Shown here: positions 1,449 to 43,351 of the stretch, piece after piece
How positions within the stretch are numbered: the stretch's first letter is position 1
Layout: the number at the start of each line of letters is the position of its first letter
From: Isoetes taiwanensis
Lineage: Eukaryota; Streptophyta; Lycopodiopsida; Isoetales; Isoetaceae
Assembly: GCA_021234155.1 (NCBI GenBank)
Contig: JAJEKV010000006.1
Span: 26,509,916 to 26,573,915, forward strand
DNA: 64,000 bases
Direction: 5' to 3'
Translations under genes and position numbers: made by a program
Notes under the pieces: model-generated
Database searches by the model: none
The model's input: only the letters and a program-made list of their open reading frames with translations
What the model was told of the DNA's origin: nothing

Positions 1449-1474
1449 TAAGTCGGATTTAATTAAAGTGGGAC
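1449..1474 (+). repeat. Left terminal inverted repeat of element 1
   Basis: Reads TAAGTCGGATTTAATTAAAG followed by TGGGAC. It matches the reverse complement of 13535-13560 except at positions 7 and 8 (GG against CT). Confidence 0.8.
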
Positions 1475-2339
1475 TTATTCTATTTCTATTTTTTTCGAAC
1501 CCGTTAATTTACATAAAAGTAGCACCCCGCTCGAAAACTATCCTAAATTAATTTTGAATAAAAACTCAATCCGAAAGCTTTTTCCGCCAAGCCCTGTGTT
1601 CGCAGTCGAAACAAAAACAATGCAACCTAAAACAAAGGAAATTCCATTAAAGTTTGAAACCAAAGATCTAGTTGAAAAAGAATTTTTATTAATAAATTGA
1701 ACAGATAAATGTATTTTTACATCTGACGCAGAGACCATGGCTGGTCTTGGTCACACCAGCTACATCATCTTGGTAGGTGGTCCACCTTAGATTAACTTGT
1801 GGCGCTTCTTCATGCCGCCGGCCTCGTAAGCCTTGGGGGCAACCCCAAGAGTGTGTGTGGAATGCCGATCGTGGAGGTGCCTCGAGCTACCGGCCACTCG
1901 CCCACCGACCTCCACCGCCCCCCAGCCTCTTCATCGAATATGCTCCACCCCCACCTCCGTGGATGTTGTTATGCAATGCTTGCAAGATGCTTTGAGCTTG
2001 CCGGATCGCTCCTTTGCTTTTCGCCGTTTCTTTATCCCTGTGGTGTAGCGAAGCAACCCTCAATCTTCAAGGAAAGCAACCTGTCCCAAAGGCTTCGCAA
2101 GAGTGTAGCGTGGACCGGATCTCACGCTGCAATCCATTTCTTCCGCCTTGAGCTGGATCCGTACGCCCGGAGCGCCTCGTGATGCCCGAAATGGACTGTG
2201 GCCGGTGTCGGATCTGGGCCTCGAAACCACCGGAGCAAGGAGAGTATGATTAACAATTACGGTCATTAGTCAAAACGAAGAAAAGAACGTTGAAATCAAA
2301 TTACAACGAGAACATTCATTCCATACAACCGCATCCAAT

Positions 2340-2680
2340 GACGTGAAGTAGTGTCTTTCTCGACTCATGAGCCGAGAAAGGCCCGTAAAGTCAAAGTACA
2401 ACCATACTCATTAGAATATGGTTGCATCCAATCACACACCTAAGCATACAAATGCTTTTGTCAACGAGAAAATTGAAGATGCCTTTCTCGACTCATGAGT
2501 CGAAAGGCCTGTGAAACCCAATGTACAAGCATTATCATAATAGATTGTATCCAAGCATTTCAATCAAAAATGGTTTCATCAATAGACAGATGCCTTTCTC
2601 GACTCGTGAGTCGAGAAAGGCATCGAAAACTCAATATACAAGTATATTCATTACAAAATGGTCAATACATGTTTCACGCT
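2340..2680. repeat. Three tandem units of about 120 bp, each with a palindrome
   Basis: Three similar units each contain a palindrome (2355-2380, 2481-2508, 2592-2621) followed by a similar spacer with a run like ATATGGTTGCATCCAA. The third palindrome has 14-bp arms, GCCTTTCTCGACTC and its exact complement, around a 2-base centre. The arms of the other two carry single changes or a small deletion. They belong to a wider set of TTCTCGACTC...GAGTCGAGAA palindromes across 2.3-9.2 kb. Confidence 0.75.
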
Positions 2681-3676
2681 CGATTACAATATTCACACAA
2701 TTTGACTATCCGAAAAGCAAGGGTCACTTTCTTGTTCACCAAAGTATTTGTCGTCCATAGCTTTCATGATCGGCTTGCTCTCGGATCGGGTTCCGTGAGG
2801 TTTCGGATAGTTCGTAAGCACATCGCGACAAGAATGGCGAAGAGGGATTCCGCCAAGATAGATGTAGTCCGGGACAACCACCTATCCGCCTCATATTCTT
2901 CGTGTCGATATGGCTTAGCAATGATTGTATTTTTGCTGCTATGATAGCACTTGTAGGCGGAGTCGCCTATGATCGGGCCAGTTGTGTTTGCCATAGTCCC
3001 GAATTGCTCATAAACCCCGGCCCAAAAATTTTCACCATTATAGGCTTCCCTTTGTGATGGTCGGATCGAGGTCCTTCACATGTTCTCGACCCTTTCGCTT
3101 CCCCAAACGAACTTGAACTTCAAAACCGAAAATGCCGAGAACACCAAGAACATTGACAATATTTTTTCTTTGCCATACAAGACCATATGCCCACTTCAAT
3201 CCTCGTACAAATTCACCAATAATTTCTTTAGCTCTAGGCCCTGATACACTATTTTATGCCTGCTTTCATTGGGATCCGCGAGGTGTTAATCTCGGGACGC
3301 CTTGTCGTGGTATACCGCAGCTAATACCCATTGACGCCAAATATTACAAGCTTGGTGGGACCAAATGATCCCAGCTTGGAGTTTGGCTCCACCATATTTC
3401 CGCTCATCGATCCAAATGCGGATCATTATCTTTTCGTGTTCCTTCCGGGCCGCGGAGCAGTGTCTTGCTCGATTTTCATTCTCATTCTCCTCGCGACGAA
3501 CCGCTGGAATCCATTGACAATGATCCCGAGTCGTTGAGCTGGAATTCTCAAATGATGACATCCGGCCGAAGGAACGAGTTTTCGACCATGCGAGTCGAGA
3601 ATGAAAAGAAAAGGTATTGAAAGGAACGAGTTTTCTCGACCATGAAGTCGAGAAACACCGATAGAGCAAAGTAAAC

Positions 3677-4117
3677 TCACCTCAATCTCGTGTTTTCAAT
3701 AATGTTTTCGGCAAAGATTCTCGTCCAAACCTTCGACATCCTCGCCTCCGCCAGTTTGTCTCCCTCGCCCCTCGCCGCCTTTATCGCTCCATTTGTCTTC
3801 CTCCCCTTGAAATGCTCATGAAGCAGATCCGTGTATGACCGAATGGTTTCAACCATGTCCTTATTTCCAACCACGGATATAGGTTTCATTCCAAACAAAG
3901 ATAGCCCCCCGAGAGAACAGCCATTCATGTACCACTCGTGATACAATTTGATCTTCCTCACCAAGTCAAGTTGGTTATGAAGTACTTGATAACTCTTGGC
4001 GGATAGGAATTTATGTATAGGACCCCACGCACCATCTTTGCCGACCTTGTCCATCGATGGAACATCCTCCATAAACCCGCCCCTTCCGTGGTTCCATCTC
4101 GCTTCTTGAGAGATCAT
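3677..4117 (-). pseudogene. Left-arm coding remnant of element 1 (146-aa open frame)
   Basis: This is the longest open frame in the left arm. It translates to a mildly basic protein with the stretch DLVRKIKLYHEWYMNGCSLG and a charged C-terminal part (RGEGDKLAEARMSKVW). The frame continues upstream of its first methionine after a frameshift near 4120-4200, where DKWWSSEHHYLDKFMISQEARW-like sequence precedes it and a CKAPNCQH stretch lies in a neighbouring frame. I do not recognise the family. Position and strand correspond to the minus-strand left arm of the second element, but I could not align the two by eye. It may be an accessory or DNA-binding protein of the transposon. Confidence 0.35.
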
Positions 4118-4599
4118 GAACTTGTCGAGATAATGATGCTCGCTAGACCACCACTTATCCAGGTGCGAATCACGATCTTGAAATCAAAACCAAAACTATG
4201 TTGGCAGTTTGGTGCCTTGCAAGCCAAGTCTGCACTCATGATCAAGTTCGTGATATGGAGTGCATGATCTTGTTGGTGAAGTTAATATCACCGCCCATTT
4301 GAGACAAAGAAGCTGTTTGATTGCCCCAAGATGCAAAAGACAAGGAAACCGAAAGTATCCAGGTCGGTCATGTCCGTGACACGCCTTGTACCAATCGCCT
4401 ATGTCGTCACTTTGTCATAAAAAAAGGTGGGGGTCTTCGATCATATTGATGGCAAATAGTGCCACGGGTCCAAAAGCCAGTTCCAGACCACCAAATCCCC
4501 AGTGTCCCAAAGTAACCAGAAATGGGGAGCTTATCGTCTCGGCTTTAAATGGGACCACCCTTCCAAGCTTCCTTTCAGAATTGCCATAGCACGCTCAGG

Positions 4600-5212
4600 G
4601 AAAGGAAGGGTTTTGACGCTACGCTCAGCTTGGTGTTGATGTAGGGTTGACATAGACGTTCAATTCCTTCATGTCTTCCTCATCAAGGGCAGCCTTTTCC
4701 TTTGTAATAATCAAAATCATGGTATTCATTAGATGCAACGCTGCAAAACTCCGCGATGCCTTCTAACGCACTGGCCGCTTTTAGGACTGTGGGCATAACT
4801 TTGCGCCCCGCAATTTAGAACTCCCGGTCTTCCTCAAAGCAGGATTGTTCCTCCAAGATTTTGCCTTGTAGGTCAAGCGCTTTTGTCCGTGAGGCCCCTG
4901 TGATCCTCTTCATGAACTGCTTTGTCAACAACTTGGGGTCCGCCCTGCTTGAAATTCTCCATTGTCATTCTTCAGCTTGCCTCTTGTCCATTGAGCCCAT
5001 ATGTCGGGCCATTTCTCCCGCACCGCCTGCTAAGAATGAGGTCATATTGGTCCGAGAGACTCCCCGCCTTTCCTTGGTGTTCTCTTCTTCCCCTTTCTTC
5101 CTCTCCTCGCCATCTTCCTCGTCCCCTCCAGCAGAACATATCTGACATAGTTTCTCAAAGGTCTTCCACTTATCCGAGGGAGCCCCTGTTTTTTAGGACG
5201 CCACCTGCCTAG
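4600..5212 (-). pseudogene. Decayed charged, coiled-coil-like remnant in element 1 left arm
   Basis: Read on the minus strand across several frames, this stretch gives a highly charged segment (GDEEDGEERKKGEEENTKER) followed by GEMARHMGSMDKRQAEE and, further on, LLTKQFMKRITGASRTKALD. Stops interrupt it, so it is not a usable gene. The composition suggests an acidic, helical region of the same left-arm protein as the neighbouring remnants. No family is recognised. The lower-GC flanks and repeated palindromes around it argue against a host gene. Confidence 0.25.
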
Positions 5213-5299
5213 CTTGTAAGGATATCTCGTCGATAGTACGTATCTCGACAATGTACCAATGTCGAAAGCATGAAAGTATCTACAAACACCCAATAAACA

Positions 5300-5720
5300 A
5301 GTAATAGAAGGTTTTCGACTCATGAATGGAAAAGTCCCTTGAATGTCTAATTTTCTTTACTGGCTTTCGACTTCAAGGAAGTCGAAAGCTCAGATCCTTG
5401 ATTGCATACTGGCTTTCGACTCGCGGAAATGAAACCCCGATGATAATCGCAAATGTTAGGATGGCCGAGGGCTTTCGACTTCGCTGAAGTCGCAGAAAGT
5501 CCTTGAATGTCTAATTTTCTTTTCTTGGCTAAGGGTTTCGACTCGCGAAATGAGAAAGCTCCACATCCCTTTGATTTTTACATTATTTACTCCACGGCAC
5601 CGACTGGCGGTCGAAAACCCGATGATAATCGGGTAAATGTTAGGATGGGCGGGGCTTTCGACTCTTCTACAGCGAAGTCGAAATGGAAAGATTCAGAGTT
5701 ATTTACCTTCACGAGTCGCA
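5300..5720. repeat. Second cluster of GGCTTTCGAC palindromes in element 1
   Basis: Several copies of a variant palindrome occur here, for example 5364-5388 (CTTTCGACTTC, 3-base loop, exact complement) and 5471-5499 (same arm with an inserted CGCA). Others lie near 5310, 5410, 5530 and 5655. Spacer pieces such as TTGAATGTCTAATTTTCTTT and CCCGATGATAATCG are also repeated, so the cluster is a degenerate tandem array. Confidence 0.65.
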
Positions 5721-5940
5721 CTTTCGCTATTGTGTTAAAGGGCAGTGGCTAATCTTTGGGCCAGTTCTTGCCGGGTCTCAATAAAGAACTCTGCACTGCG
5801 ACTCGGCATATCTATCAGCGATCCTTTATAAACCTCCTTCTCCGTCCTAATGCCAGCCACCCTCACCTGAATGCCGGACCGCTACAAACCTTAACCGGAC
5901 TTCTTTTCGCCGGATCTTCCTCGGACTTCGGCTGAACAAC

Positions 5941-6261
5941 TCACTCCTCGATCGATCTTGTTAAAGGTATGACATCCATGAGGCGTTGGATGCAAGCGGG
6001 ATGTCGCGACCATCGTTCATCTCCAAAGGCGTAACGGATTAAATTCAATGGTTGAACAAGCGGCATCTCCGTAAACCGGTAGTCTAATGTCCAAAGAACT
6101 GACTTATGTGATATTCCCAACGGATAATCTTGAGCTAGACGCTCCATTTTCTCGTGCCCCTCGGGAAATCCCGATCGATCATCCTGATCGAGGTTTGGGG
6201 AGTCGACCATATCTTCGCCTCCTTCACATCCGATTCCTCCTGTGGGTGTCATCATCCCCAT
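5941..6261 (-). pseudogene. Left-arm remnant of element 1, unrecognised (106 aa)
   Basis: An open minus-strand frame includes EMPLVQPLNLIRYAFGDERW and ends MDVIPLTRSIEE. The end weakly resembles an ADVVPFDPITR stretch encoded at about 35950-36000 in the second element, in the matching part of its left arm. That supports a shared ancestral protein but is too short to be decisive. No known domain is recognised. Frameshifts on both sides show decay. Confidence 0.25.
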
Positions 6262-6535
6262 CTTTGTTTTTGGTGGACTTTTTGTGTATGAACCACAACT
6301 TCATTCCCCACCGCAGAGTGTTGTAGAGTCTTCAAGACAAAGAGAAGTGAAGCTCCCTCAGATTGAATGCTTTTTTTCCGACTGAAATCTCCATACCAAG
6401 CTCCCCGGATGTTAGGGTTCCGGGCCCTTCATCCCTTCCAGATCCTTCCACCCAAGGTTCTAAACAATTTAAAGGCGCCTTTTTTTTCGGTGCCCTTAGC
6501 CTTGCTCATGGAAGAGTGAGAATAATTTGAAACTG

Positions 6536-6883
6536 CTAATTTTTGGTGCGATAGAACTTACTCTTCCCGCAGTCCCCGACATGTAGTGTTAAATGCTTCG
6601 AATCGGGCGCAGACTTTGAGAGCACAACACCGATTTTCTTGTACTTGTCTCCTGAGCTCTTCTTGTCCCTTTGGTGTAGAAACAGATCTTCTCCTTCCCA
6701 CTTGTCGATACCTCGACATACCACCAAGAATCGTCCCATTTGTTTAAGAAGCTCGCCTCCAAATCCCTCGATGACGAAGAATGGAGTTCGCCAAAGATCA
6801 CCAAAGAGTCCGAGGTGAATGCTGCAAGAAGAAAGGATGGATCGCCAAGGTATTCCCGACAAAAGAAAACCTCGAGAGCTCAC
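6536..6883 (-). pseudogene. Left-arm remnant of element 1, unrecognised (115 aa)
   Basis: Two overlapping minus-strand frames share this stretch. One gives SSRGFLLSGIPWRSILSSC and the other gives FLNKWDDSWWYVEVSTSGKE followed by KICFYTKGTRR. The second has the look of a folded domain with aromatic residues. A frameshift probably joins the two. I cannot name the family. It lies toward the outer (5') end of the presumed minus-strand transcription unit, whose start would be near the palindrome-rich middle of the element. Confidence 0.25.
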
Positions 6884-7849
6884 CGGGTGTTTTTCTTCTT
6901 CTTGTCGCCCGGTAGAAGCATCCTCCCTACCGCTTCTTAGACGGAGTCATGTCTATATGCCCTCATCCTCTTCGCACCCCCTCTCAGAATTAAGTTTCCT
7001 CCGCTGGTTGTGAGTTTTAGGACCCATGTAAAAAAAAAGATCGGCGTTCTTTAGTTTGAACTTAAGGACATGCAATCATTTATGAAAAGAAGCGGCTAAG
7101 GGTACAAAGACGGTCGGCTTTTAGCCCCGCCCAAACACTATTTCGAAATTTAATCACATCAAGGGACTAAGTGAGTGGAGCGAGTTTATCTTCCTGCCCC
7201 ACCTCGAGGTCGGGGGATCATCAGAGGCTTAGCGACTTGAGAGATAGCCCGGCAAATAAAGGCCTAACGGCCTTGCATATGTGTGTTTTTCGACCCATGG
7301 CGATCCCTATTACCGCCGGAGTTGATTTGATCGATGAGCACCTGAGCTAAGGTGAAACTTGAGAGGAGTCATGAACCAATCGAACTCTACATCTGCCATG
7401 GAAAGGGGATACGCCTTGAAAGTCGCGTTGATACAAACAGTATTAGATCACGAATACACTCTTGAAGAGACCGGCTGAAGCAAAGACTCACGGGTGAGGT
7501 CATGCCCGGGATCCGCGATACAGCGGCCTACAAAATTCAAGGTGAAGAGGTGAGTTTCAGAGATGCCTATGTTATTTAAACTTTGTAGAACATCGCCGAT
7601 GTGTTTAAATAATAATGGAACTGGCGATAAGCTCTGGACGGATTAGAGTGTTTTGTCCAAAGATTTTTCAGCTTGAGAGATGATTTACTCTCTAGGTTGA
7701 GAGATGCCTCCGCAAAGGAAACATTGGATCTGGGGTAAAGAATTCCCGCTTTTAGGTGTGTTTCTTCATGGACTGTTTTTTGGAATGTTGTACATAGATC
7801 AAAGCTAGGACTAAGGCCCGAGATGCGGTTCAAATGCATCCTCTTGTAG

Positions 7850-8990
7850 TTAGTCGAGGGGCCTCCACCCTGTCCGAACCACTCCTCTTCGCAATATTCG
7901 AGGAAGATGGTTCAAGGAGAGTGGCTCGATGTGCTAGAGGCACTTGGGACTAAAAAAATGTAATAGAAAGTGCAAGACTTGTAGAGAGAATGCAAGCCTT
8001 GGCTTCCTCCTCAGGGTTTCCCCTGTGGTTGTTGTAGAGGTTTCCACCCGGGCCCGAGCCCCTCCCTTCGCAATATTCGACGAAGATGGTTCAAGGAGAG
8101 TGACTCGACCGGTCGAGGCCACCGCTACCGCATACGTGAGAATTGGTCGGTTAAGGGATTCTCGACTCTGCGGTCGAGAATGCCCAGCTTCTGTCACCAT
8201 TCTCATTCGCAAATTCGAGGAATGCCTTAACCCGGCAGAACTGGGGTTAGTACATGTGCCAAGATTGCGGTTGGGTAAAGACATTCGGAAACTTCCATGG
8301 CCAGGAATCTATCTGTCTTCTGTGGTTTCCTGTGGTTAGTTGTAGAGGCCTCCACCCAATCGCAGCCCATCCCTTAATATTCGACGAAGAAGGTTCAAGG
8401 AGGCGGTCTTTGATTGGGTAGAGGCCACTAGACCTACCGGGAGAATTGGGTTGCTAAGAGTTGGAGAAAAACCTTACTTCCCTTAATGTCAAAGATAGAA
8501 GGAAGTGTTTTAAGGCTGTCTGCAGACCAACAAACCACAACGTTTTCGACTCCGAGTCGAGAAGCGGCCAAACTGTCCGAGGAAGATAGAAGGAGAAGAT
8601 GGTTCCGAAGAGGCGGTCTTTGATTGCAGAGGCGGTCGCGACCACACACATGGGAGAGTTGGAGTTGCTAAGAGTTGACTGAGGCAGACAAAAAAAACCA
8701 CTTCCCTCGCAATGTCCGAGGAAGATAGAAGGAGAGGTTGAGACTGTCTGCCCGAGCCAGCTCTAGAGTGCACTAAGAGCTGCGTTTTCACCGACTCCAC
8801 GAGTCGAAAGCGCCCGACACCTCGGTGGTTAGTCGCCCAGAGGCCTCCACCCGCCGGAACCCGATCCTCGCCCGCCCAAGGAGCATGGTTCAAGGAGAGT
8901 GGCTCGACCGTTGGGAGGGCACACTGCGACTGCACAAAGAGCCATTGGCAGAGGTATCACATTCTCGACTCCACGAGTGAGAAGGCCGCA
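7850..8990. repeat. Degenerate tandem repeat of roughly 180-250 bp units
   Basis: At least four diverged units share, in order, GTAGAGGCCTCCACCC-like sequence, a CCTTCGCAATATTCGACGAA-like block, GATGGTTCAAGGAGAGTG and CGAGGCCAC, then AGAATTGG. Starts are near 7855, 8035, 8340 and 8830, with a partial unit near 8596. Palindromes of the TTCTCGACTC type sit between units (8158-8181, 8542-8563, about 8961-8983). No coding function is apparent. Confidence 0.6.
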
Positions 8991-9090
8991 GCGAGGGTTC
9001 TAAAGAATGTGAAGACATTGGGTAGCCGTCGGATCCCGTCGCGAAGTCGAGAATCTCAACACGCCCGGCAGTCGAGTAGGTACCTCCCTC

Positions 9091-9135
9091 TTCTCGCCTC
9101 GCGAGTCGAGAAGTTCTCGACTCGCGAGTCGAGAA
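9091..9135. repeat. Two adjacent TTCTCGACTCGCGAGTCGAG-type palindromes
   Basis: Positions 9114-9135 form a perfect 22-nt palindrome (TTCTCGACTCG plus its complement). Positions 9091-9112 are the same sequence with one mismatch, one base apart. These are the cleanest copies in the window and close the palindrome-rich part of element 1. Confidence 0.8.
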
Positions 9136-10180
9136 GAAGGCCTGTACTTCCTGGATTGTTGGCAAGCTGAAGTATTCTCAACTCGCCACTCCCTTCTGCA
9201 TGTCTCCTGCAGTGGATTTGCTGTGAGTTAGAAATGGAGATTCCGTGAAGCAATTCCTATTCTGAATTCTTGCCGAGAAAGACATTCCTAGTTATTTTCT
9301 CATTAATGCTCGCAATATCTTACTTCCTAACACCGGGGCCTCGATGATTTCTATCTCTCGGTTGTTTGCTACTATAACCACTATTCTCACTTGTGCATGT
9401 ACAATGTATTCAATTCAACCACAAGCAAGAAAAAGATAACAAAAAACAGAAAACAATACAAAGATTAATAAGATTAATGAGAAAACAGAGAATGCTGGAG
9501 AACAAAGACAGAGAAAAGTGGAGAACAAAGATGTAAAAATGAGATTAAAAAAGGGTATGATATTACAAAACATACCCTCGAAGATTTTGTGGATGAGGAG
9601 GAGGCTTCCGAGTTCGCCTCCATGTGGGTATAGTCGCTGACAAAGCGTGAATAAGGATTTGTCTGGTCAAATTGTATCGTGGATTAATAAGAGCCTCTAA
9701 CAAATGTAATATAAGAAAAAATGCACTAAAAAGACTTACGTAAAACTAAAAGCAAACTAAAAAGGGCCTCACACTTTCTTCTCGGTGAGAACGCCGCCAA
9801 ACAATGAATCACAGAAACTTTGGCCCGAAGCCGCCCCCATCCGTCGACCAAGCCGCTTGTCATAAGATGGCGCTGAATCGCTTTGGCTCGACGATCGCCT
9901 GTCCGGTAAAGCGGGCCCTAAAGGAAACAGGGAGGAAGAGAGATCGAGAAAATGGGAGGAAGAATGGTTTGGGGGAGAGGAAGAGGGTGCAAGCATTAGG
10001 CCGCACCCTCAACCTCGTAAAAAGTGCAATAATAAAACCATTGTCACGCAGGGCCATGCCTCCATGACGTGGCAAGTGTGGATTCTGACGGGTTACTTCG
10101 CTTTAGCCTCTTAAGAGGCTTCCACGTGGCCATGACAAAATATGAAAGGGTAGGTTATATGCTTATGTATTTAATAAGGT
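9136..10180. other. Middle of element 1, no gene recognised
   Basis: This stretch separates the palindrome-rich left half from the plus-strand gene on the right. It includes an A-rich segment (about 9420-9560, repeated GAGAAAACAGAG/GGAGAACAAAGA pieces). No frame with recognisable motifs is present. By layout it would hold divergent promoters for the two arms, but no promoter motif can be asserted. Confidence 0.4.
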
Positions 10181-10440
10181 TTCAATGGTTGTATTTAATA
10201 TGGTTTCAATGGTTGTATTTTAATATGGTTTCAATGGTTACAATGTTTACATATGGTTTAGAATGAGTGTGGTTGTATGCTTTAATATGGTTATATGATT
10301 TTAGTTAATATGGTTGTATGGTTTGTATATGGTTTGTATATGAGTGTGGTTTGTATGGTTTTATATGGTTGTATGGTTTGTATATGAGTGTGGTTTGTAT
10401 GGTTTTATATGGTTCATATGGTCATATTTGTGGTGTTTGG
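10180..10440. repeat. TATGGTTGTATGGTTTGTATA minisatellite
   Basis: The segment consists of variants of ATATGGTTTCAATGGTTGTA and GTATGGTTTTATATGGTTGT in tandem, including an almost exact duplication of a roughly 45-bp unit between about 10330 and 10410. It lies just 5' of the plus-strand gene of element 1. Confidence 0.7.
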
Positions 10441-11059
10441 GGCTATATGGTTTTAATGTGAGCTTTTTCATTCGTGGAGCATGTGAGATGAGTAAAATGG
10501 AGCTGTGGAATTCCAAAGGAGGCCATTGCCCTAGGCTCCAATGGAGGAAGATGGGTTGCCTTTTGTTGCACCCTTGCAACCTGCATCCGGTATTTGGTAG
10601 AGGGGTATAATAACCAAGTAGCTGATCCATTTGATAGTGTGAATGATGAGAGGGCGAGATGAACATCTTGAGTTGGCATTGTGAAGCTTCTTATCGGTTG
10701 ATACTATCATGTCCCAGGAAGCTCTAGTGATTGCATTGTGTGCCTGGTGGGTCGCTGGAGTCCCAAGCCCGCTTGAGATGGCCAATTAGATTTATTACAC
10801 ACAAGAATGGTGATACTCTAGAATGCCCTATGAACTACACACCCCAAGGCCCACCCAAGGCCATGTGGAAGATTTGGTGGTCGATGAGCATCCTTTGATC
10901 ACAAAAGGAAGAGACGCTATGTCTTTCATAAAAGGCGTACCAAAAGGTGCCCAAGAGGCCTAGAAGTGACAAATATTTAGAAAGGATGGAAAGTATGGCA
11001 CCAACCAAAGAAAACCTGAGGCAATTAGGGGGACAAGAGTGTTGCAACTCTAGATTGCA

Positions 11060-16101: not shown

Positions 16102-16105
16102 CCCA

Positions 16106-32891: not shown

Positions 32892-33244
32892 TAAGCACGA
32901 ATTCATTAATTAGAGAAATTTGGAATTCTCGTTTAGCATGAAATAGGTTAGCGGGTAGCCATATAGTGCAAAAACTACTACCAATTGAGTAAAAGTTGGC
33001 GTTTTTTTGCACAAATTCTGCAAATGCTTCAGTCTTATTCGGAAATATAGTTTTTACTGCTAATGCAAAGGTTCACCGCGAGTATAACGTAGTAGGAGGA
33101 GGGAGTGTGAAAACTTCTGAAGAAGCCTTGAACGCGATGTTTCGCAGCTGAAAGGAGAGACGAAAAGAATGTGCCTTTTATTAAAACCATATGAGAGCAT
33201 TGTGTTAAAAGAAGGTACCGAGGAGCAAGGATATCACACAAAAT

Positions 33245-33613
33245 TCAAGATAAAGCCATGTAATTGTTACATGAGAGGATCGCTACAGCGATTATTTTTA
33301 GCATTAAACATATGGTAAAAGATATGGGTAAAGACAAAACCAAAGTTTTGAAACAAAAATTTTCATTGAAGGAAGTAATATACAACATAATTAATTGATT
33401 GAAGGAGATAATTATTCGATTGTGTTTGGATACTTGATCGTGTATCACACCCATTTCATTGGCCATGCGATTGACATGCTCTCTACCCAATTCCATAGCT
33501 TGTGTTGTGTCCATCTCACGAATAACCCAGGACCTCTCGGAATCCCGAACACCCATGGCGTTTTTGCGATGCGCCTGCAGATGTGAATCAGGCTCCCATT
33601 CTTCATCATCCAC
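33245..33613 (-). pseudogene. Element 2 left-arm remnant, helical charged region
   Basis: The minus-strand frame includes VDDEEWEPDSHLQAHRKNAM and REMDTTQAMELGREHVNRMA, then EMGVIHDQVSKHNRIIISFN. The pattern of charged and hydrophobic residues suggests a helical or coiled-coil C-terminal part. It sits at the outer end of the left arm, so it would be the C-terminus of the minus-strand product. No family recognised. Confidence 0.3.
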
Positions 33614-34359
33614 TTTGATTTGCTCCCCGCCTATAAGTTAAGTTTTGCAAGAGCTCCTTGCGGTAGCATTCTCATGTGGATGATAGAGCTTCGCTTCTTC
33701 TTTGTGTACACGATGCTCCTGTGACCCAAGAACCTCATCTTGGTCAATGTCCATGTCTTTGTTAGTCCGCTTCCATTTGCTTTGGGTCTGTTTCCATGTG
33801 TTCTACGCCTAATGTATTCAAACTTATGTTAAGCTGTCAAGAAAGGCATGTACCCATCAAGCTTCTCATTAAGTGCATTCAATTTTTGGAAAGTGGGCTC
33901 GTGGCTTCTATACCTTTTTCCGCCTCTTCAAGCAAGCGCTTTGTTTCTTGCATTCTCTCTTAGTAGGACTTAGCATCGAGGTTTTCCAAAATGGAACCCA
34001 ACTTTGATAGATCTCAGTTTTGGGTGATATCGATGTCGGTTGAGCTGGATCGTGGTCAACATTCTCTCGCTTCGGCTCTTCCTCAAACCCATCGGCACTT
34101 GGATTGGCCATCTTATCAAAGCGTTTCAAAGAACGCCCTCGGGAAAGCGCACACTTTACGAACTTTGAAAGCCACGCTCTTTTTGCCTTGCATAAGAGCA
34201 ACCACGAAGTCGGTAGAAAATTTAAAAAAAAATCCGTAACACAACCATCGGTTCGGCACCGCTTTGTTCAACAATATGGTAGGCATAGGAGGTTTTCACC
34301 GGCATTTCAATACAAGATCTCCTTCCATTGCCGCCCATTTGAATCTTGGTTTGCCTGTA

Positions 34360-35349
34360 AAAAGAGTCTGATATTTCTTTTTTTATCTTCTCGTCGGCAT
34401 CCTCATTACACTGCTAGCGGCATTGGAGGCAATGGTGTTGACTTAGGAGCCTTGCCGCAGTGTGGACATAGGTGAAGCTCCAACTCACAGTTTGCACAAA
34501 AAGCTACCTAACATCACTCCCGTTAATGCACATATGACTAATAAAGTACTGATGTTCTTTCACCCTTCTTTTGCTCTCCCATCCCATTTCTTCATAGGAA
34601 CCTAAAGATAGGTAGCCACCGCTGCGAATTTGCTTCGATGCTTGAACAAGCAATTGGGCAAATTCAATCGCGCATGATAATGACCAAGTGATAAACTTTG
34701 GCATCCGTCATGGTAGCTATCCTTGTAAATAGATCTCAGTATTTCTTGCAATCCCATACCTTGTTTATCCCTCGGATGTCAATAAATATCGATTAATACA
34801 GATTCTCTAACACTTGGGAGGAAGTAGGGATGCCATCCTTGGTCAACTTTGCTATGACAATATTTTTCTTTTCCTTTCTTTTTCTAGCCTCTTACGGCTT
34901 TAGAATATTCCCGATTGGCTCCAAAAAGGCTGTGTAGGTTACCTAGTGTATGATCCTTGTTATAGTTAGCCTTCACGCATTATCAGACGTAAGATCCGAT
35001 ATATCCATTATTCTCGCTCGCTTGAAATCGGGAAAAGCCCGAAGCAATTCCTCCCAAATATCGAAATCCTTTTGCAGCAAATTTGAGGCATAAGACAAAA
35101 TTTCAAGCCTCATAAAAGTGAGGGTTTCCGATGTCAATTGCCCGTTGTTCCGCAATCAAATCTCCCGCTATAACCCGACCGCACCTTTAAATAGGTCTTG
35201 CCTTCTATAATCTCATCGAAAGCAAAAATGTGGACAACTCTGCATTCGACATACCTCGTAGAGCAACCGGAGCCGGTCTTGTTAAAGAAGTCTTTGGATG
35301 GTTTGTCCGGAAACTCACCATGATCGTCACCGAAGTTTCTACGACTCAC
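34360..35349 (-). pseudogene. Element 2 left-arm remnant with a CPHCG zinc-binding-like motif
   Basis: Pieces in several minus-strand frames read RYVECRVVHIFAFDEIIEGK, QLTSETLTFMRLEILSYASN with LLQKDFDIWEELLRAFPDFK, and ELHLCPHCGKAPKSTPLPPM at about 34430-34490. The CPHC motif could be half of a zinc finger, and KAPNC in element 1 (about 4220) might be its counterpart, but this is weak. Stops separate the pieces. A DNA-binding accessory protein would fit but is inference. Confidence 0.3.
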
Positions 35350-35595
35350 CCACGGCCGGCAACTTCCATTAACTTCTTGAAAACCTTCTCATCCATAAAA
35401 ATGAATTGCTTTTCATCCTTAAGCTCCTCGCACTTTCAAGGTGGTCGCGTTGCAATTTTATGGAAATCTGGCAACAATTTCAAGGTCATCGGGGATCGCG
35501 GATCGCCAACTTGGCAAGTAGAAAACAAATAAATACCTTCCAAGCTGAAGTTTTAGCTGTCCCTATAGGTCCTTGTGGAGGGCAACCATAAGCCT

Positions 35596-36240
35596 TTAGC
35601 CGATGACGGTTGTTGCGGCGCCAATCGGTGGCTCTCTCGTACCGGTGTTTGCAATTACTTCAAGTTGCATTGAATACTCAACTCTATATATTCCTTGTCT
35701 CAGTAAGATTTCCGTTCGGCACCCTCGATCTTCTTCTAGCATATACTTTGGCAAATTCTCGTTCTTTGCTTTCGAACTTCGTAGGCCGTAGAACAAAGGA
35801 GTTGTGCAAAGACAAATATCCGTGGTTGCGGAAATAATATAAAATTTCTTGCCCTTCAAATCTTCCGGATTGCTCCATGTCACCCTCCTCCCGAAAGATA
35901 GACAACCGTCAGTCAAATCTACATAACGAGTGTCCAAAAGATAAAGAATTAGTTACCTGGTAATAGGGTCAAACGGAACGACGTCAGCAGGGTGAGGACC
36001 TCTGTCGGGTATGTCTTGAAGCTTTTAACCGTAGTTTGAACATGGTCATTTGACCGCATTCAGTGTGTCAAGTTTGCCGGGTGCGGGTTCACAATCAAAA
36101 ATAGAAATCTTTGTAAACCAATTAACCCCTAAGGGGTAGAACCTTTTGAACTGCTTCAAGCTTCGAGTGGTTTGCTCACCATCTTGCGTTCCTCTTCGAT
36201 TGAACTTCAACTCGACCGAATGGCGTGTGCTTGGGGCCAT
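35596..36240 (-). pseudogene. Element 2 left-arm remnant (two open pieces)
   Basis: The upper piece (36046-36240) encodes HSVELKFNRRGTQDGEQTTR and FYPLGVNWFTKISIFDCEPA. The lower piece (35596-35937) encodes VDTRYVDLTDGCLSFGRRVT and KFYIISATTDICLCTTPLFY. A stop-containing gap with GPHPADVVPFDPITR lies between. Together they look like one decayed protein. No family recognised. Confidence 0.3.
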
Positions 36241-36332
36241 GTCAATGCTAGTTTAGAGGAGGCATTCAAATCGCGGGGGTTTGAGAACCGGCTGGCCTGC
36301 GGGCTATCCTCATGAGGTGTCGATTCTTAAGG

Positions 36333-37099
36333 CTAATTTTGAAAGGATGGAATTTTTTGGAATAAATCCACGGATGTATTGCTATCTGGGGCCTTCATAG
36401 CAATAGGAAGAGTAGGGTTAACAATACCGGAGGGGTTTATCGTGGATTGTGGTTCTTGAGCAATTTCTTTTGGTGCTGAGGTCTCTCCCAAAGTAGCAAT
36501 AGGCTTCACACTCTTTTTCTTGGCCACGGCTCTTAGCCAATTGGTGTCCATCACGGAGGGCATCTTCTCGTCCCGAACCGCTTTCAAGGCAATGTTTCGA
36601 GGCTTCTTGTCTGTAGACAAACCATTTCTGCATGTCGAGAACCCGAGCAATATGTCTCTGTTTCCCTTTATACCTGACAAAGAGAGAGATTCATAGGATG
36701 GCAACAACCAGCCATACCCCTTAGCTGACGTCGGGACGTTTTTCCCTCGTATTTGCGGCTTGTTCATTTTGCTGGCTGTCATCAAAGACGGGTCATAATT
36801 GCGCCATTTCAAAATGTACTCCAGAAACTGCAATGCTTGTGGGTCCTCAATGCTGCATATGATGGCATCTTGCACATTGTTCTTCGTGCCTTCCCACATT
36901 GCCACCACTATGCCAACTTGTTCAACGCCCTCGGCTTTTTCCGGTCGCGAACAGCCATGTGTCCTTTTCTGCGATCACCCATAATATGCGGTAGAGAAGC
37001 TCGTGTAATCTCGATACACCATTTCCTTTCATTGGAAGGGGTTATAATACGGACTGGCTCGACATCTGGTCCTCGGAAGAGAGCAAGTGCTGTAAACAA
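36333..37099 (-). pseudogene. Element 2 left-arm remnant, longest open frame (191 aa)
   Basis: The 36333-36908 frame encodes MVAMWEGTKNNVQDAIICSI with EDPQALQFLEYILKWRNYDP and a basic, Ser/Pro-rich tail. A frameshift near 36908 joins it to an upstream piece with EPVRIITPSNERKWCIEITR and RRKGHMAVRDRKKPRALNKL (36908-37099). This would be the N-terminal part of the minus-strand product, starting beside the GC-palindrome middle of the element. The family is not recognised. A regulatory or DNA-binding partner of the plus-strand protein is possible but unproven. Confidence 0.4.
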
Positions 37100-37159
37100 A
37101 AGCCTGTAGTGAGTGCCTGGTAGGCTGCATAATGTGGTGCAATAAAAAGGTTTAAACTA

Positions 37160-38920
37160 CTGTAGAGAAACGCGACCGCGATCCTGCCAAGCGCCTAAAA
37201 TAGAACTCCACACAATCAGCGGCCGCTTTTTGTGTAGCACTTAAGCACGGCAAAGAAAACATCACGCCGCGAAACTAATGACCTACTACACTAGTAAATC
37301 GATGAACAAATCTATGCTCAGCCCGGATCATGTCACGGGATCTTGATGAGCAGCTACACTTATGAAGACCGCTATCCGAAATTATAAAACCAATCAAAGC
37401 AAGACCATGCGCGCTGATCTTGATGAGCAACTACACTTATGAAGACCGCTATCTAGAAATTATAAAACCTATCAAGCAAGACCGCGGCCGCTGATCTTGT
37501 CGAGCATCTATACTTATGAAAACAATAGAAGTTCTAGTAGGCAAGATCGCGGGCCGCTGATCTTGCCGAAAAAATGTTAGAAAATACCTTCTCCGAGGGA
37601 GTCCTTAGGTGCCATGGGATCGTGGTGCTTGGTTCAAGATCTGAAAAATGGGTTTTCTTTGGAGTGGGGGCCTGGAGCCGAGGTCGGCTACGCTTAGGCG
37701 AATGAAATCGCGGAGTAGAAATTCGTATGAATGTTTTGAGTGTCAATTTATAGAACGCGGCGTGAAATTAAATGCCCCGCCTCCCTCATGATGGCGCGTG
37801 AAAAACGCGTGCGCCATAATGGCGTCGTCACACGGCGCGCATAATTACCGCTGGCCGCGCTCGTATTTATTCCCCGACATTAATGCGTCGTCTGCGAATA
37901 TACCCGTCCGGAAGGCCGCGAACCCGCGTCACGAAGGTCTTTATCCACTTGGGCGTCCGCTTCAATTTTGGGTCATAATTTCGGACTGACACTTTATCCG
38001 ACCATAAATGCCTCCAAAATATCCCGGTTCTTTACGGACCGGCACGCAAAATTTGAATTGAGAACAAACCAATTCGAAAGCGGAAAAAAGCCAATTCAAA
38101 TTTCATTGTTTTGCAAGATCTTCGAGGGCGCCGAGCGCCGCCGGGCCAAGTTTGGGCAAGGATTTCTTTGCAGAATTCGCATCCGCTTGAAGGCGCCGAC
38201 GAGGGCCGATAATCCGCTTTGCAATCCACCACTACACACTCGAATTCTGCAACCGCATTGAATTCGGGGTTTCTGCCGAGGTAAAAGGCCTATTCTGATG
38301 CATATCCCTCACTGAAGTGAACTGAACGTATCAGTAATGCACTGAATTTCAATTATAACTGCAACCTCCAAGTCTCTGCACTAACATTCACTATGTATTG
38401 CATGGATTGATAAGATACCTCCTGATACTTTGTTGCAACTATGTAAAAATAGATGTTCTAAGCACTCTGGTGTGTTTATTATACAATGTAAACGTGTTTC
38501 AAGTATATGCTTTCTTTCTCTATGTGGATGAAACTAAACACTGTTTTTATGAAACTAAACACCGTATTCTGTGAGGTAGGAGTAATGCCTTATTCTGTAA
38601 GTCAATCGTTTAACTTTGGTGCTCCACGAGATCGCGGTCGCGATACCTTCAACCATCTACACTTGCTATTGACCAAAGAACTCCCAGATATCGATAACTT
38701 AGAGTTGAACCCACTAGCTAGCCTCGAAATTTGATTTGCACGAGTTCTTATTGAAACAGCTAGTGAGAATGCTTGCAACTAGCGCGACCGCGTTCTTACC
38801 CATGCTCGATAAGATCGCGGTGGCGAAAGTCATGACCATTTCTTATTTTTCAGTTCATATTTTTTGTAGTGGTTTATGATCACGGTGCTTTCTACTCACT
38901 AGGATGCGGCCGCCTATTCA
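37160..38920. repeat. Middle of element 2: dispersed GCGGCCGC / GCGACCGCG palindromes
   Basis: Short CpG palindromes recur in an otherwise mixed background: 37168-37180 (GCGACCGCGATC), 37219-37226 (GCGGCCGC), near 37484-37492, near 37546-37558, 38629-38642 (GATCGCGGTCGCGATAC), about 38783-38796, about 38813-38824 and 38904-38912. They differ in sequence from the TTCTCGACTC palindromes of element 1 but occupy the same interior position. The AT-rich interval 38280-38600 is without a recognisable gene. Confidence 0.55.
37339..37600. repeat. Tandem repeat of about 77 bp between the two arms
   Basis: Units start with GATCTTG at 37339, 37416, 37493 and 37559. Each contains CTACACTTATGAAGACCGCT and AAATTATAAAACC-like text, and the later ones end in the GCGGCCGC palindrome. 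The spacing is 77, 77 and 66 bp. Confidence 0.7.
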
Positions 38921-41900
38921 CGCGACCCTTGTTTGGAGGATGGCTGATGTAATTCCGCTGTATCTGCTGGGGAAAAAGGTGGCAGAAGGAAGAGTCCACA
39001 ATTTCGAGCGCCATCACAATTCGACTGTCCCGGAGGGTATGGTTGTCGTTTCAATTGTGAATGTTACGATGGATGATTCTGCTACCAATTCCCCCAATTG
39101 GAAATAGAAAAATGGGTGAAGTGGGGACTTTTGTGTTGTGGTACAAGAAGGACATTGTTGCTCCACTAGATAGACATGAGGAAGCTTGCACCCCACCAGG
39201 TCGATAAAAAGGATAGACCGGCGGAGACGAGGGAATGAGGGGTTCGCCACTAATGAGGCGAATCATGTGCAAGGGCTTTCTAGAGATGAGTTAGTTGAGA
39301 AGGCGTGCACACTCATGCATGAATGCTTGCTACATGGCTTATGCCTATGGTGTTATCGTTTTTGCCCGATCCAAACCATCTTTGGTCCGGCGTGAAGTTA
39401 GGGGAAGGCTCGATAGTCGCTACTATCATGAACATTTTTCCAATGCCCTAAAAAGATCTCTATCTTGTTGCCAGCCCTGTGCGTAAAATGCCCCAACCGC
39501 ATGACCTTGTGAGATGGCCCATAGCCCTCGTGCTCGTTGATAACATTCCGCCACTCTTGTGGTTGCGGTGAAGGAGAAGGATGTGGAGAATGAACCTTAC
39601 TCCATTAGACCCAAATTGGCATCACCAAAAAGAGACCTTTACAGATGGTCAATCTGGAGACCCGAACACGCCCGGCCACCGGACTAAATGTGAAAGAAAA
39701 ACTAGTGCTCAGGGCTATTCTAGACTTCAGTCATCAACTGTCTTTGCATGAAACGATCTTTGTGCAAATTTTACATCCCAGGAGATAGCTTGCATGAGAA
39801 CCTTTTACTGGAACATGAAGTCCTCGGAGCGCACAACTTTTGCATATAACATGCTAGATCTTTGCTCTCAAAATGGTGTAGTCCGCAAACTGATGTTGAA
39901 TAACAAAGCAGTGTCGCGTGAAAGCATGGCATAAAGCCTATGGCATTCCCATTTCCACTTTTACAAGTGGAAGAAGCTCTTCAATGACGGCCCGTAATTG
40001 CCGAAAGCACGAAATCTTGGGTCTAAGAAGCCAAGGTCTCATACTTTGGCTGGCAATGCTGTGCTATCCATGTTCATAGATGAAAACGCAGAGACGATGC
40101 CACACCGCTCGAAAATTATGAGCGAGGGTAGCAGACAAAATGTTAAGAGGCTACCTTCGGTATTGACTAAGAAGGATATACATCAAGAAGTAGATATTTC
40201 CGTTCACGAGATGACAGTGCAAACATATTTCTCCTTCGTCATTTAAATGCGCTTGGAAAGAGAATCATTCAGAGGTAGCAATAGCTAAGAGGATAGCATT
40301 TTCCAAGTGTAACACCCGTATTGTCATAAAGGAAAAGCTTGCTAAGACCGTAGATCCAAACGAAAGAAGGGTACTTGCAATAGAGAAAAATCACATATGA
40401 CGGCCCGGATTTCATGCGGGGAGCCTTTCTTTGGTCTGGAGAGCTTTGTCGCATAGATCTCCCCGAGCACGCTTTAACCATTATACATGATAAGATGGAT
40501 CGAGAATAAGACCATGGTCCCTCGCCTAGAGAAGCTAGCAAAGTCCATGGAGGGGTGAACGCATCGAAGGTCGGTGTTCTGAGGTGCTCTCATGCACGGC
40601 CATGGTATAGGTGCCTTGGGCCACTTCTCCTTTGGACCTCCGCCTGATGATTCTAATTTTCATGTGGGATCCTTGAATCATACCTTGAAGACACTTTGGA
40701 GAATAAATCGAGGATAATTGGGGCCATTTGAGAGATCTTGATCGTCTGGCGGTGGGGTGCAGCAATTTTAAACACAAACTAACCTTAGGACAAAAATGAT
40801 GAATGGCGGTAGAAATGATTTTATGCCTCCTATCAAAGGCCCCATGGTAGCAAACAAGTTGCCTAGGAGGCTTTACTTGCAGCTAGATAATTGCTCAGGT
40901 CGAATAAGAATAGATATCTTTTCTCTTACTTGTCATACTTGGTTTGGTTAGGTGTATTTGATCAAGTGCAAAATTGGGATTCATGATGGTTGGACACACC
41001 CACGATGACATAGATGCCCTATTTGGAAACTACTCTACTCTAATGAGAAGATCAGATGCATTGACTATTCCGGAGCTTATGCAACTCTTGGTGCAAGTAG
41101 TTCAAAGGCTCCTTCACCTTACCTTGTGACAGAGGTTCCCGATTGGAAGGAATTAGGTGAAAGGATTTATCCCTGATAAGAAGGACCGTTTATGTGGTCA
41201 CTTGGAACCTCTACTCTTCAAGTTTTGCATGAAGGATGGATGGCCACTAATGTTCTACAAGATGAGGCGGGGCATAGGGAGTGGCTCCTAAAAGGGAATC
41301 GAATGTGGAAGGAGGATGCCCAAGGTTTACCTATGATTCCGAGAGGGTCACCTAAGGTCCTGCTGACCATATGGGAGCTTGAAAGATATAGGTGCATTAA
41401 GAGCTTCTATTGCCAAGTACATGATGCCTTTGGGCAGCCTATTTCTAGAGTTGGCGATAAGTCATGGTCCAACACATATATGAATGAAGTTATTGACTCT
41501 TGGTCCACCTTTGCTGCGAGTGCTTGGTGACGTGCGCCCCAGAGAGTCGTCATTCAGGATTTCTGGCCCAGCACTAGGCAAAGTGCATTGGAAGAACCCG
41601 AAAGAGTGTTTGTGGATGAGCACATTGAAGCATCTCATTACGTTGGGCCTTTCTCGGGTAGACCCAAGAACCCAGTTGAAATATTCGACCCCTACCAAGA
41701 TGTCAAGAAGGGAATGCTCTTGCTAATCAGACCACATGATAACTGCCCCGAGCATGGATGGCTTTTGCGCCGAAGAGGACCCAATGAGAGGACCCTAATC
41801 TCCCACATTATGAAGAGGTGTTTGTCTCTTGGTTTGAACCTCATTGTTTAAAAGGAACCTCATATGCAATGCAAGATAGGGATTGTTGGAGCAAGAATTG

Positions 41901-41990
41901 GAGACCCAATCCTAATGACCATACGCTACCAACCTTTGAAAACAATAGACTATGGTTGGGCCGTAGAGACCAGGCCATTGTCGGGTGATC
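38904..41990 (+). pseudogene. Decayed DUF7869-like transposon gene of element 2
   Basis: The same protein as in element 1, spread over several frames. N-terminal pieces are weak (38904-39107 and 39186-39500). Clear motifs are LTIIHDKMDR (40489-40500 for HDKM), MHGHGIGALGHFSFGPPPDD, LYLQLDNCS (40880-40894), MMVGHTHDDIDALFGNYSTL (GHTHDDID at 40992-41015), FDPYQDVKKGMLLLIRPHDN (about 41690-41745) and WRPNPNDHTLP (about 41905). First-to-second motif spacing is about 391 nt (403 nt in element 1) and second-to-third is 112 nt (111 nt), so the core is collinear. The longest intact piece is 41192-41530. Stops and frameshifts make it non-functional. A DDE-type nuclease role is inferred from the acidic motifs. 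Confidence 0.7.
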
Positions 41991-41999
41991 CCCAGTAGT

Positions 42000-43245
42000 G
42001 TTAGGCTCTCGGTTGCAAGAATTAGTGGCTAAAGAAGCTAAGGGCGATGATGAGAACTCTTGAGGTATGCAATGCTCTTTTACATAATTACTATATCATT
42101 CATAACATGAAAGTTACAATAGACTAGTTATTATTTGTTACGCTCTGCGTTTTCCATCTCAACACAAGAGCTCTTACACTATACAATGCTAAATGGGTGA
42201 TTCATTCATCTTCGGGATCCGTAGTAGTGATCCCCGATATCTCATAGCTCATTCGCTTCGGGGAAGCCAAATCGGATGGATCATTACACGAATTGACGCT
42301 TGAGAACCTTGAATCTATCCAAAGCTTTTCTTCAGCGGTAGGGATCAAGAAGAAGATGCCCATCTAGGCAACCAACAAGATCGAGTGGCTCATTGAGCAC
42401 TTGATCGCCTCGATGTGGTGAATTGATGAAGGCAAATAATCCATGTGAGAGGAATGAACTTTAGCCCCAAGTGAGAAGCTTTTATAGTGAGGTAGAATTA
42501 TTGAGGTGAATTATTGGGGTAGACTTCGCCATTATTGCTCGTGTATAAGACCGTTGTATAAATACAAGTATAATACATCTTTAGTATGGATATATGTATG
42601 CGTTTAATATGCGTATGTTTCAAAACATGTTTGCTTGACCAATTTAGCTATGATTGAATTCAATGACATCTTCTTCGAGAATAAGTGGAGGTGGGATAGC
42701 ACATCGTTACAATATACTTTCGGTTAAGGTGCATTGATATTACATCCTTAATCGTAATGCTATTACATCCTTACTTAGTTATTAGGTACCCATGTCATTA
42801 TTACATTATTAGCGAGTCTGCGATTCACTGCGTCATCAACATCAAAGCTCGTGGATGCCATTCACTCATAGATCTCGATCGGGAACCCAAGAAATATGGA
42901 CTTTAACGCGCGAGTGAGCTTCCCGCAAGCACTAGCAGGTCCATCAGCTTTAGATAAGAGCCATGGATCAAGCTTAACGCTATTTCTAAGCGCGTTCGCC
43001 CAGATCGTTGTAGCTCAAGTAACACTTGAAAGAGCGGATGTGCTTTCGGACGCGAGGCATCGAGGAAGCCATGGAAGATGAATGGCCTCTACCCCTCGTG
43101 AAGCCGTTTTATAGTGAAGTAAAATTATTGATGTGAATTATTGGCGTACAATGTAGGGCCATTATTGAGCTTATACGAGTGTCATGTACACGTACAAGTA
43201 TAACACAAAATTTGTATGTATATGTGTATGTTAATTACCTCATGT
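42000..43245. repeat. Subterminal duplication of about 620 bp at the right end of element 2
   Basis: The stretch TTTTATAGTGAGGTAGAATT with ATTGAGGTGAATTATTGG and TACAAGTATAATAC near 42480-42580 recurs as TTTTATAGTGAAGTAAAATT with TACAAGTATAACAC near 43105-43205. The upstream text is more diverged. No coding function is seen; it separates the gene from the right TIR. Confidence 0.5.
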
Positions 43246-43351
43246 TTGTTGGGGTCGAGTACTAGGTGAAAGTATTCGTGCTTGAGCAAATAAGGTGTGC
43301 TCAAAATTCTCAAAATTGCGTTATTTTATCCAATTAATGAAATCATGCTTA

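Follow-up and report, generated by a model that had tools for sequence, protein, structure and literature searches.

What kind of transposon is represented by two large elements in a 64,000-nucleotide stretch of the quillwort Isoetes taiwanensis (contig JAJEKV010000006.1, positions 26,509,916 to 26,573,915; hereafter the window), and does the DUF7869-like protein encoded in their right arms move them? An initial annotation of the window had described both as members of one family of two-arm transposons and had proposed this protein as the transposase, with a DDE-type acidic triad and a partner encoded in the left arm. In the computational analysis described here, the elements (element 1 and element 2) are very probably large two-arm cut-and-paste DNA transposons, with a right-arm transposase of RNase-H fold and three-aspartate (DDD) type, and a divergent accessory gene in the left arm.

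Termini and target-site duplications

The Isoetes taiwanensis genome searched comprised 1,658,258,908 bases in 1110 contigs, with the window lying within contig C1067. The true termini of both elements read AAG...CTT, which places element 1 at 1450-13559 and element 2 at 32893-43350, to within 1 bp per end of where the terminal inverted repeats (TIRs) had initially been located. The ends and the flanking target-site duplications (TSDs) are:

1446-1449, no strand: left TSD of element 1, AAGT, identical to 13560-13563
1450-1474, plus strand: left TIR of element 1, AAGTCGGATTTAATTAAAGTGGGAC, 23/25 against the right TIR
13535-13559, minus strand: right TIR of element 1, 23/25 counted from the AAG terminus
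13560-13563, no strand: right TSD of element 1, AAGT, by flank comparison
32889-32892, no strand: left TSD of element 2, AAAT, by flank comparison
32893-32917, plus strand: left TIR of element 2, AAGCACGAATTCATTAATTAGAGAA, 21/25 against the right TIR
43326-43350, minus strand: right TIR of element 2, 21/25 counted from the AAG terminus
43351-43354, no strand: right TSD of element 2, AAAT, by flank comparison

Shared sequence began at the same AAG in every one of the 28 left-end loci retrieved (8 of family 1, to which element 1 belongs, and 20 of family 2, that of element 2, each set including its window copy). Because the base preceding AAG differs among copies, the leading T of the TAAG start proposed initially lies outside the elements; counted from AAG, the 24/26 TIR matches given for element 1 become 23/25, and the 21/25 given for element 2 were reproduced. 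A 2-bp duplication (AG; AA), likewise proposed, was rejected because 19 of 20 two-ended copies, both window copies included, duplicate exactly 4 bp. Ten further family-1 copies were fetched, six of them with a right end within 20 kb (exact pattern) and five of these six with exact TSDs (TTCC, ATAT, CTAT, ATAT, TATT). For family 2, exact 4-bp TSDs were present in 12 of 12 further copies (AATA, TTAT, TTAT, TAAT, ATTA, TGAA, AAAT, TTAG, ATTA, TTAT, TTAA, GAAA). Across the 19 exact TSDs, 69 of 76 bases (91%) are A or T.

Copy number, age and division into two families

The genome was searched for further copies with each of the four ends, and 40 matches per end, the window's own included, were scored among the first-look candidates. 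These candidates numbered 1305 (family 1, 252 bp query) and 911 (family 2, 269 bp query) for the left ends, and 1560 (family 1, 261 bp query) and 1617 (family 2, 262 bp query) for the right ends; copy counts are lower bounds, because only 40 candidates were scored per search. The element ends are not chance, and both families are high-copy.

The best 40 of the 1560 family-1 right ends were 100% identical (rounded) to the window copy over about 260 bp, and the best 40 of the 1617 family-2 right ends were 98-100% identical to theirs, which indicates recent spread. Compared with other scored copies, the window left ends were 85-88% (family 1) and 96-97% (family 2) identical. Two-ended family-1 copies were 77-97% alike in compared blocks over 800 bp and, measured against copy i, more alike in their last 2.3 kb (93-97%) than in the remainder, so that the elements look mosaic, with right ends that appear young. 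In element 1 and copies d-j, near-identical right ends accompany diverged left arms, as if arms had been exchanged or right arms homogenised. Among the 40 scored family-2 right ends, 13 have a scored left end as partner at a distance of 8.2-16.5 kb, and 8 of these 13 pairs enclose a DUF7869 match.

The right arms of elements 1 and 2 are collinear at the protein level; between their left arms a single weak 57-residue match (1.8e-4) and otherwise no homology was found. Since the right arms are similar as protein and the left arms are without a clear match, the elements are best described, on sequence comparison, as two distinct families with a common DUF7869 protein lineage and two-arm layout. 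The initial assignment to one family was rejected at the DNA level.

Two family-1 left ends, those of copies a and g (L029/L030 and L041/L042; C907:1262025 and C1055:8411125), had no right end within 20 kb. The far halves of these 20-kb stretches hold long frames of a different type, including one that is Transposase_21-like (1.7e-5, below cut-off). At 29.4 kb from the C907 left end stands a right end of family 1, as in a nested or much larger element. At L036, L038 and L046, frames for a Copia-like polyprotein and a reverse transcriptase resembling that of long interspersed nuclear elements (both by motif) adjoin or sit inside family-1 copies.

The right-arm DUF7869 gene

The pieces of the right-arm gene in the window are:

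11713-11952, plus strand: piece of element 1 with HDKMD (first acid, D codon 11779-11781), by motif
12053-12367, plus strand: DUF7869 core of element 1 (Pfam 2.2e-28), with QLDNC (D codon 12179-12181) and GHTHDDID (D codons 12296-12298 and 12305-12307)
12419-13244, plus strand: C-terminal pieces of the same protein in element 1 (WRPD, WDPFEDIK, WRPN), by motifs and collinearity
40486-40500, plus strand: HDKMD (first acid) of element 2, by motif
40772-40948, plus strand: QLDNC piece of element 2, frameshifted shortly after (DUF7869 0.0042, below cut-off)
40962-41126, plus strand: DUF7869 piece of element 2 with GHTHDDID (Pfam 2.2e-13)
41531-41985, plus strand: C-terminal pieces of element 2 (FDPYQDVK, WRPN), by motifs and collinearity

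The HDKMD, QLDNC, GHTHDDID, WDPFEDIK/FDPYQDVK and WRPN motifs were recovered on the plus strand of both right arms as first described, and the DUF7869 likeness was borne out by the two Pfam matches listed; the motif spacings, initially given as 403/111 and 391/112 nt, were recounted as 397/111 nt (element 1) and 394/112 nt (element 2). Besides both elements, the scanned relatives L048-L050, L053, L074, L076, L079, L086 and L089 match Pfam PF25273 (DUF7869). The entry names no function, and its match starts only after the first acid: in L049 it spans 308-497, and D287 precedes it. The HDKMD motif of the family-1 copy L048 aligns with D287 of L049. In L048, an open frame of 349 residues (470-1516) holds the motifs and matches PF25273 at 7.9e-41.

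A PF25273 search of the Isoetes taiwanensis genome yielded 9902 first-look candidates, and 150 of the 150 that were scored, most of them stop-free, lay above the cut-off; none of 14 control genomes had a match. A transposase role would give this domain, so greatly expanded in a single plant genome but without a catalogued function, a candidate function open to testing. Around a second set of 150 scored DUF7869 matches, of family-2 type, open frames reached up to 945 residues, and at least two complete family-2 copies with perfect TSDs retain open DUF7869 frames of 477 and 508 residues. At 15 of the 40 family-2 right ends, a DUF7869 match lay 2.17-2.82 kb inside on the expected strand, with none on the opposite strand (counted with all 150 matches of the family-2-type set; randomly shifted matches gave a mean of 0.012 and a maximum of 1 in 500 trials). 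A gene at a near-fixed distance from the right end of multicopy elements bounded by TIRs and TSDs supports the role as transposase.

Relatives outside the quillwort

Relatives were sought with a degenerate GHTH(D/E)xID..F pattern in viral contigs and in a bacterial and archaeal genome set. The viral contigs contained no DUF7869 relatives by protein or by the GHTHDxID pattern. The genome set contained 16 pattern loci, 13 with DUF7869 relatives by BLAST (some also by Pfam) and three (L075, L082, L088) with no DUF7869 relative. The 13 relatives are probably eukaryotic DNA in mis-binned metagenome-assembled genomes (MAGs); L074 also has a Gypsy-like frame (by motif). Eight of the 13 belong to a single MAG, which is labelled uncultured Trichormus sp. 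(sample ERR2144891), and since Trichormus (Anabaena) azollae is the cyanobiont of the fern Azolla, these contigs are read as presumptive fern DNA binned with the symbiont.

Seven of the eight fern-type contigs carry single open frames of 873-924 residues, 38-39% identical to L049 over 718-741 residues, and the intact relatives as a whole span 873-984 residues. The ratio of non-synonymous to synonymous substitution rates (dN/dS) among the seven fern-type genes was 0.09-0.16 (18 of 21 pairs, where dS was computable, many dS values being high), and the DUF7869 protein therefore appears to be kept under selection. The nearest of these relatives to family 1 is L079 (963 residues; 31.7% over 350 residues). 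The MAG labels of the 13 eukaryote-looking contigs (L074-L089) are cyanobacterial, planctomycete, Flavobacteriaceae and Bacteroidetes, and an identical 8-kb sequence stands in two differently named MAGs (L076 = L084). The DUF7869 protein of L076 (259-3462, 1068 residues) has a weak upstream OTU-protease-like match (0.034, below cut-off).

Acidic triad and predicted fold

Alignment A3 comprised 15 sequences and was numbered from L049:449-2599; L084 (identical to L076), L089, L051 and L052 (first acid out of frame) were excluded. D367 and D409 were invariant, and D287 and D406 were conserved at 90% or more. D287 lies within xDxM(D)Q, 21 residues ahead of the Pfam domain in L049. A DDD-type set of acids (D287, D367 and D409 or D406) is thus conserved across A3.

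Structural conclusions rest on the second of two AlphaFold models, built from the 15 sequences. The core of this model (271-460) has 10-residue means of the predicted local distance difference test (pLDDT) of 64-92, mostly 77 or above. The predicted chain opens with a strand at 281-288, which holds D287, and continues with two further strands (315-322 and 326-333), a helix (341-353), a fourth strand containing D367 (361-367), a second helix (372-387), a fifth strand (393-399) and a last helix, 406-421, on which D406 and D409 lie. This order fits the beta1-beta2-beta3-alpha-beta4-alpha-beta5-alpha core of RNase-H-like DDE/D enzymes, with acids on beta1, on beta4 and after beta5. The structure prediction that the initial annotation had called for thus returned an RNase-H-like topology with the acids at canonical positions, and weak Foldseek support. 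Among the 50 Foldseek matches listed of 242, most were RNase-H-fold proteins (PIWI, herpes terminase nuclease, UvrC, Argonautes, PFV integrase, ISCth4, Mos1); a search of the viral structure library brought up nothing below 1e-3, and a PDB sequence search with L049 found nothing. Topology and the placement of the acids carry more of the case for the predicted RNase-H-like fold than the scores do. Together with the linkage to the right ends, the conserved acids and the model support the initial proposal that the DUF7869 protein behaves as a transposase with an acidic triad, of DDD type and presumably catalytic.

Left arms and the divergent partner gene

The left-arm pieces in the window are:

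2767-3075, minus strand: open piece of element 1, no Pfam match, resembling a stretch in copy i (L045:1358-1900)
3289-4183, minus strand: further open pieces of element 1, no family match above cut-off
34976-36974, minus strand: open pieces of element 2 (largest 36336-36974, 213 residues), no family match above cut-off

The stretch in copy i is weakly HAD/NIF-phosphatase-like, with an IDDSAYKC motif (NIF 6.5e-4, HAD-IIID 1.4e-4). When the left 8 kb of nine family-1 copies were reduced to a plurality consensus, no left-arm frame exceeded 177 residues, as would be expected of short exons or decay.

The fern-type contigs carry, to the left of DUF7869 and divergent from it, a gene on the minus strand. 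Its long first part shows a ParB-like motif run (by eye), which had no match in the library families searched and nothing useful in PHROGs. One exon carries CGDV...IADIPYG and another VLDLFSGT, the latter matching PF01555 (N6_N4_Mtase) at 4.1e-8 (33.9 bits) in L074 and 4.7e-7 (30.4 bits) in L083, above the curated cut-off of 26.7. In L083, both arms stand between an inverted repeat matching at 32 of 34 positions (locus 506-6549, 6044 bp). The PF01555 match likens the fern-type partner to the beta-class N6/N4 DNA methyltransferases (CcrM, MboIIA, RsrI), of which RsrI and MboIIA were weak PDB matches, and we take the permuted order of the DIPYG and DLFSGTG-like motifs as the beta-class arrangement. 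Unlike these enzymes, the partner is encoded divergently from a putative transposase in a seemingly eukaryotic DNA transposon, with a ParB-like part in front.

This partner is abundant in the Isoetes taiwanensis genome as well: the methyltransferase exon drew 1326 first-look candidates (best 1.8e-21) and the ParB-like exon 2706 (best 6.6e-44). A methyltransferase match lay divergently, 4.9-6.1 kb away, at 16 of the 150 DUF7869 matches scored in the PF25273 search, with two pairs in other orientations (compared with 150 scored methyltransferase matches; random shifts, mean 0.53, maximum 4 in 500 trials). A ParB-like match lay divergently within 9 kb at 21 of the 150, with none in other orientations (139 main rows used; shifted control, mean 0.44, maximum 4). 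Because it is common to the quillwort and the fern-type contigs, the divergent pair of methyltransferase-type and DUF7869 genes is read as an old unit. The initial claim that the left arm encodes a partner therefore holds for the methyltransferase-type gene of this sister lineage, and no partner was confirmed in the window families. An assignment of the family-1 left arm to the fern-type ParB-like and methyltransferase gene, suggested by likeness by eye in a short stretch, was dropped (profile E 0.15, pairwise E 1.3).

PMC5890265 describes retrotransposons carrying cytosine methyltransferases, which likewise join a mobile element to a DNA methyltransferase; those are C5 enzymes, whereas here a DDD DNA transposon would carry an enzyme of N6/N4 type. 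If a DDD transposase and a bacterial-type DNA methyltransferase are indeed paired in one lineage of DNA transposons, N6/N4 methylation would have a route into plant genomes and could bear on the escape of transposons from silencing.

The left arms also bear on an alternative that we consider improbable, in which DUF7869 is a passenger or accessory protein and the transposase is a left-arm product or a protein supplied in trans. Mobilisation in trans is indicated by broken copies with near-identical, hence young, ends, and the left arm of the sister lineage, too, encodes a DNA-acting enzyme. However, it is DUF7869 that is common to both families, whose left arms are without a clear match, and DUF7869 that has the conserved acids and the RNase-H-like model; the left-arm families found are methyltransferase and HAD-like, not nucleases.

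Proposed mechanism

The analysis shows the ends, the TSDs, the copy number, the youth of the copies, the linkage of DUF7869 (and, in the sister lineage, of the accessory gene), the conservation of the acids and a fold prediction. With DUF7869 as the transposase, what we infer of catalysis, of the protein that cuts and of the action of the partner is the following. The transposase would consist of the DUF7869 domain and the upstream stretch holding the first acid, would bind and cut at the AAG...CTT inverted ends and would insert the element into AT-rich DNA by cutting the target with a stagger of 4 bp, the source of the 4-bp duplications. The left arm would contribute a divergently transcribed accessory gene, encoding in one DUF7869 lineage a putative ParB-like and beta-type N6/N4 DNA-methyltransferase protein; in family 1 the accessory appears different, and is probably multi-exon with HAD/NIF-phosphatase-like pieces. 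The accessory probably acts on the element's own DNA or chromatin, whether by marking it, by bridging the ends or by countering silencing, and the family-specific palindromes are possible sites of this action. The chemistry is open to direct testing, since there are young copies whose ends are exact and whose open frames are long.

Several observations weigh against this mechanism. The DUF7869 gene is broken in each of the window copies and in two further family-2 core stretches that were fetched, and the TSD of the family-1 copy h has a 1-base mismatch (AAGT/AAAT). The HAD/NIF matches of the family-1 left arm are below the curated cut-off. In the methyltransferase lineage, terminal repeats were found in the L083 contig only, and there without a duplicated flank; ParB-like neighbours were found at none of the first 100 (of 150) family-2-type DUF7869 matches; and no recognisable ParB-like or methyltransferase exons were found in the window families by profile (best E 0.15, fern-type exon profiles against frames of 40 residues or more in six family-1 copies and element 2). 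The AlphaFold model is moderate overall (mean pLDDT 66.1, predicted TM-score 0.55), with a pLDDT of 66 in the block holding D406 and D409, and the first model, from 9 sequences, was poor (pLDDT 43) and was kept as a contrast only. Foldseek against the PDB gave no match below 1e-3 (best QDE-2 PIWI, 1.3e-3), query-normalised TM-scores were 0.18 or lower among the 50 matches listed of 242, and at least seven of those listed are not RNase-H folds (five acetyl-CoA carboxylase chains, a MutS-beta chain and a norovirus protease).

Superfamily placement

The elements are filed here as DDD DNA transposons of unsettled superfamily with an unusual partner gene. The closest known superfamily, by description, is Sola, and it is a serious possibility, a little short of an even chance, that both elements belong to it (to Sola2 or a sister group), with DUF7869 as Pfam's unnamed Sola-type transposase domain. 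In PMC10741241, Sola elements are given a DDD transposase, 4-bp TSDs, lengths of 2-9 kb and sometimes above 15 kb, TIRs of 11-1124 bp and an occurrence in a moss; PMC3627910 gives dictyostelid Sola2 AT-rich 4-bp AWWT TSDs and an 888-residue transposase. Superfamily lists in PMC10045372, PMC9587614 and PMC10294476 were also consulted. The elements described here agree with this portrait in their 4-bp TSDs of 91% A+T, in the DDD-type triad, in the 873-984 residues of the intact relatives, a transposase near 900 residues, in large size and in a seed-free plant host. They depart from it in TSDs beyond AWWT, which fits 4 of the 19 exact ones, in the AAG termini and in the methyltransferase/ParB-like partner of one lineage. 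The placement in Sola concerns the name, and is compatible with the DDD-transposase mechanism.

Membership in CMC (CACTA/EnSpm), Tc1/mariner, piggyBac or Kolobok is hardly credible, all being excluded by termini or TSD. CACTA elements are large, with two genes, CAC termini and a Transposase_21-type enzyme. The elements here resemble them in large size and two genes, and a Transposase_21-like frame lies within 20 kb of a family-1 left end (one of the two copies a and g); their termini, however, are AAG and not CAC, and Transposase_21 had no match in the pieces searched, which came from element 2 and from six family-1 copies with both ends (window, d, e, h, i, j). The TSD is a variable 4-bp sequence, not the TA of Tc1/mariner, and TTAA occurs in 1 of the 19 exact TSDs, not exclusively as for piggyBac and Kolobok.

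The literature searched made no mention of DUF7869 and held nothing tying it to transposition, and searches with one exact motif string and for methyltransferase-carrying DNA transposons returned nothing on point. Beyond the DDD-transposase mechanism, we tentatively entertain, as a rather doubtful extension, that DUF7869 marks a so far unrecognised superfamily of DDD transposons in eukaryotes, with ends of AAG type and TSDs of 4 bp, whose members retain the transposase while the divergent partner is swapped between lineages; one widespread lineage, in the quillwort and apparently in a fern, would carry its own N6/N4 DNA methyltransferase linked to a ParB-like protein, so that DNA methylation encoded by the element could occur in these plants at family-specific palindromes.

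Palindromes and simple repeats

Element 1 contains a dispersed palindrome family:

2358-9134, no strand: TCTCGACTC..GAGTCGAGA (TCGACTC-nn-GAGTCGA), 11 half-sites

All 11 occurrences of the half-site TCTCGACTC in the window are inside element 1 (shuffles, mean 0.24, maximum 2), and full palindromes number 1-9 in each of five other family-1 copies. The fern-type contigs L087 and L078 have palindromes above block-shuffled sequence, mainly of TCGATGC..GCATCGA or TCGATAC type; L074 has four of TCGATGC/TCGATAC type, with no overall excess, and no such palindromes were found in the L083 element or in element 2. As a guess, proteins of the element may bind or modify DNA at the palindromes, which would fit a ParB-like or methyltransferase partner.

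Within element 2, at 37171-38825, CGCGACCGCG occurs in three exact copies and one mismatched copy, possibly a repeated site of its own. Elsewhere in the window, an ACAAGA array of about 20 copies lies at 61937-62059 and a CAATC array of about 52 copies at 62168-62426.

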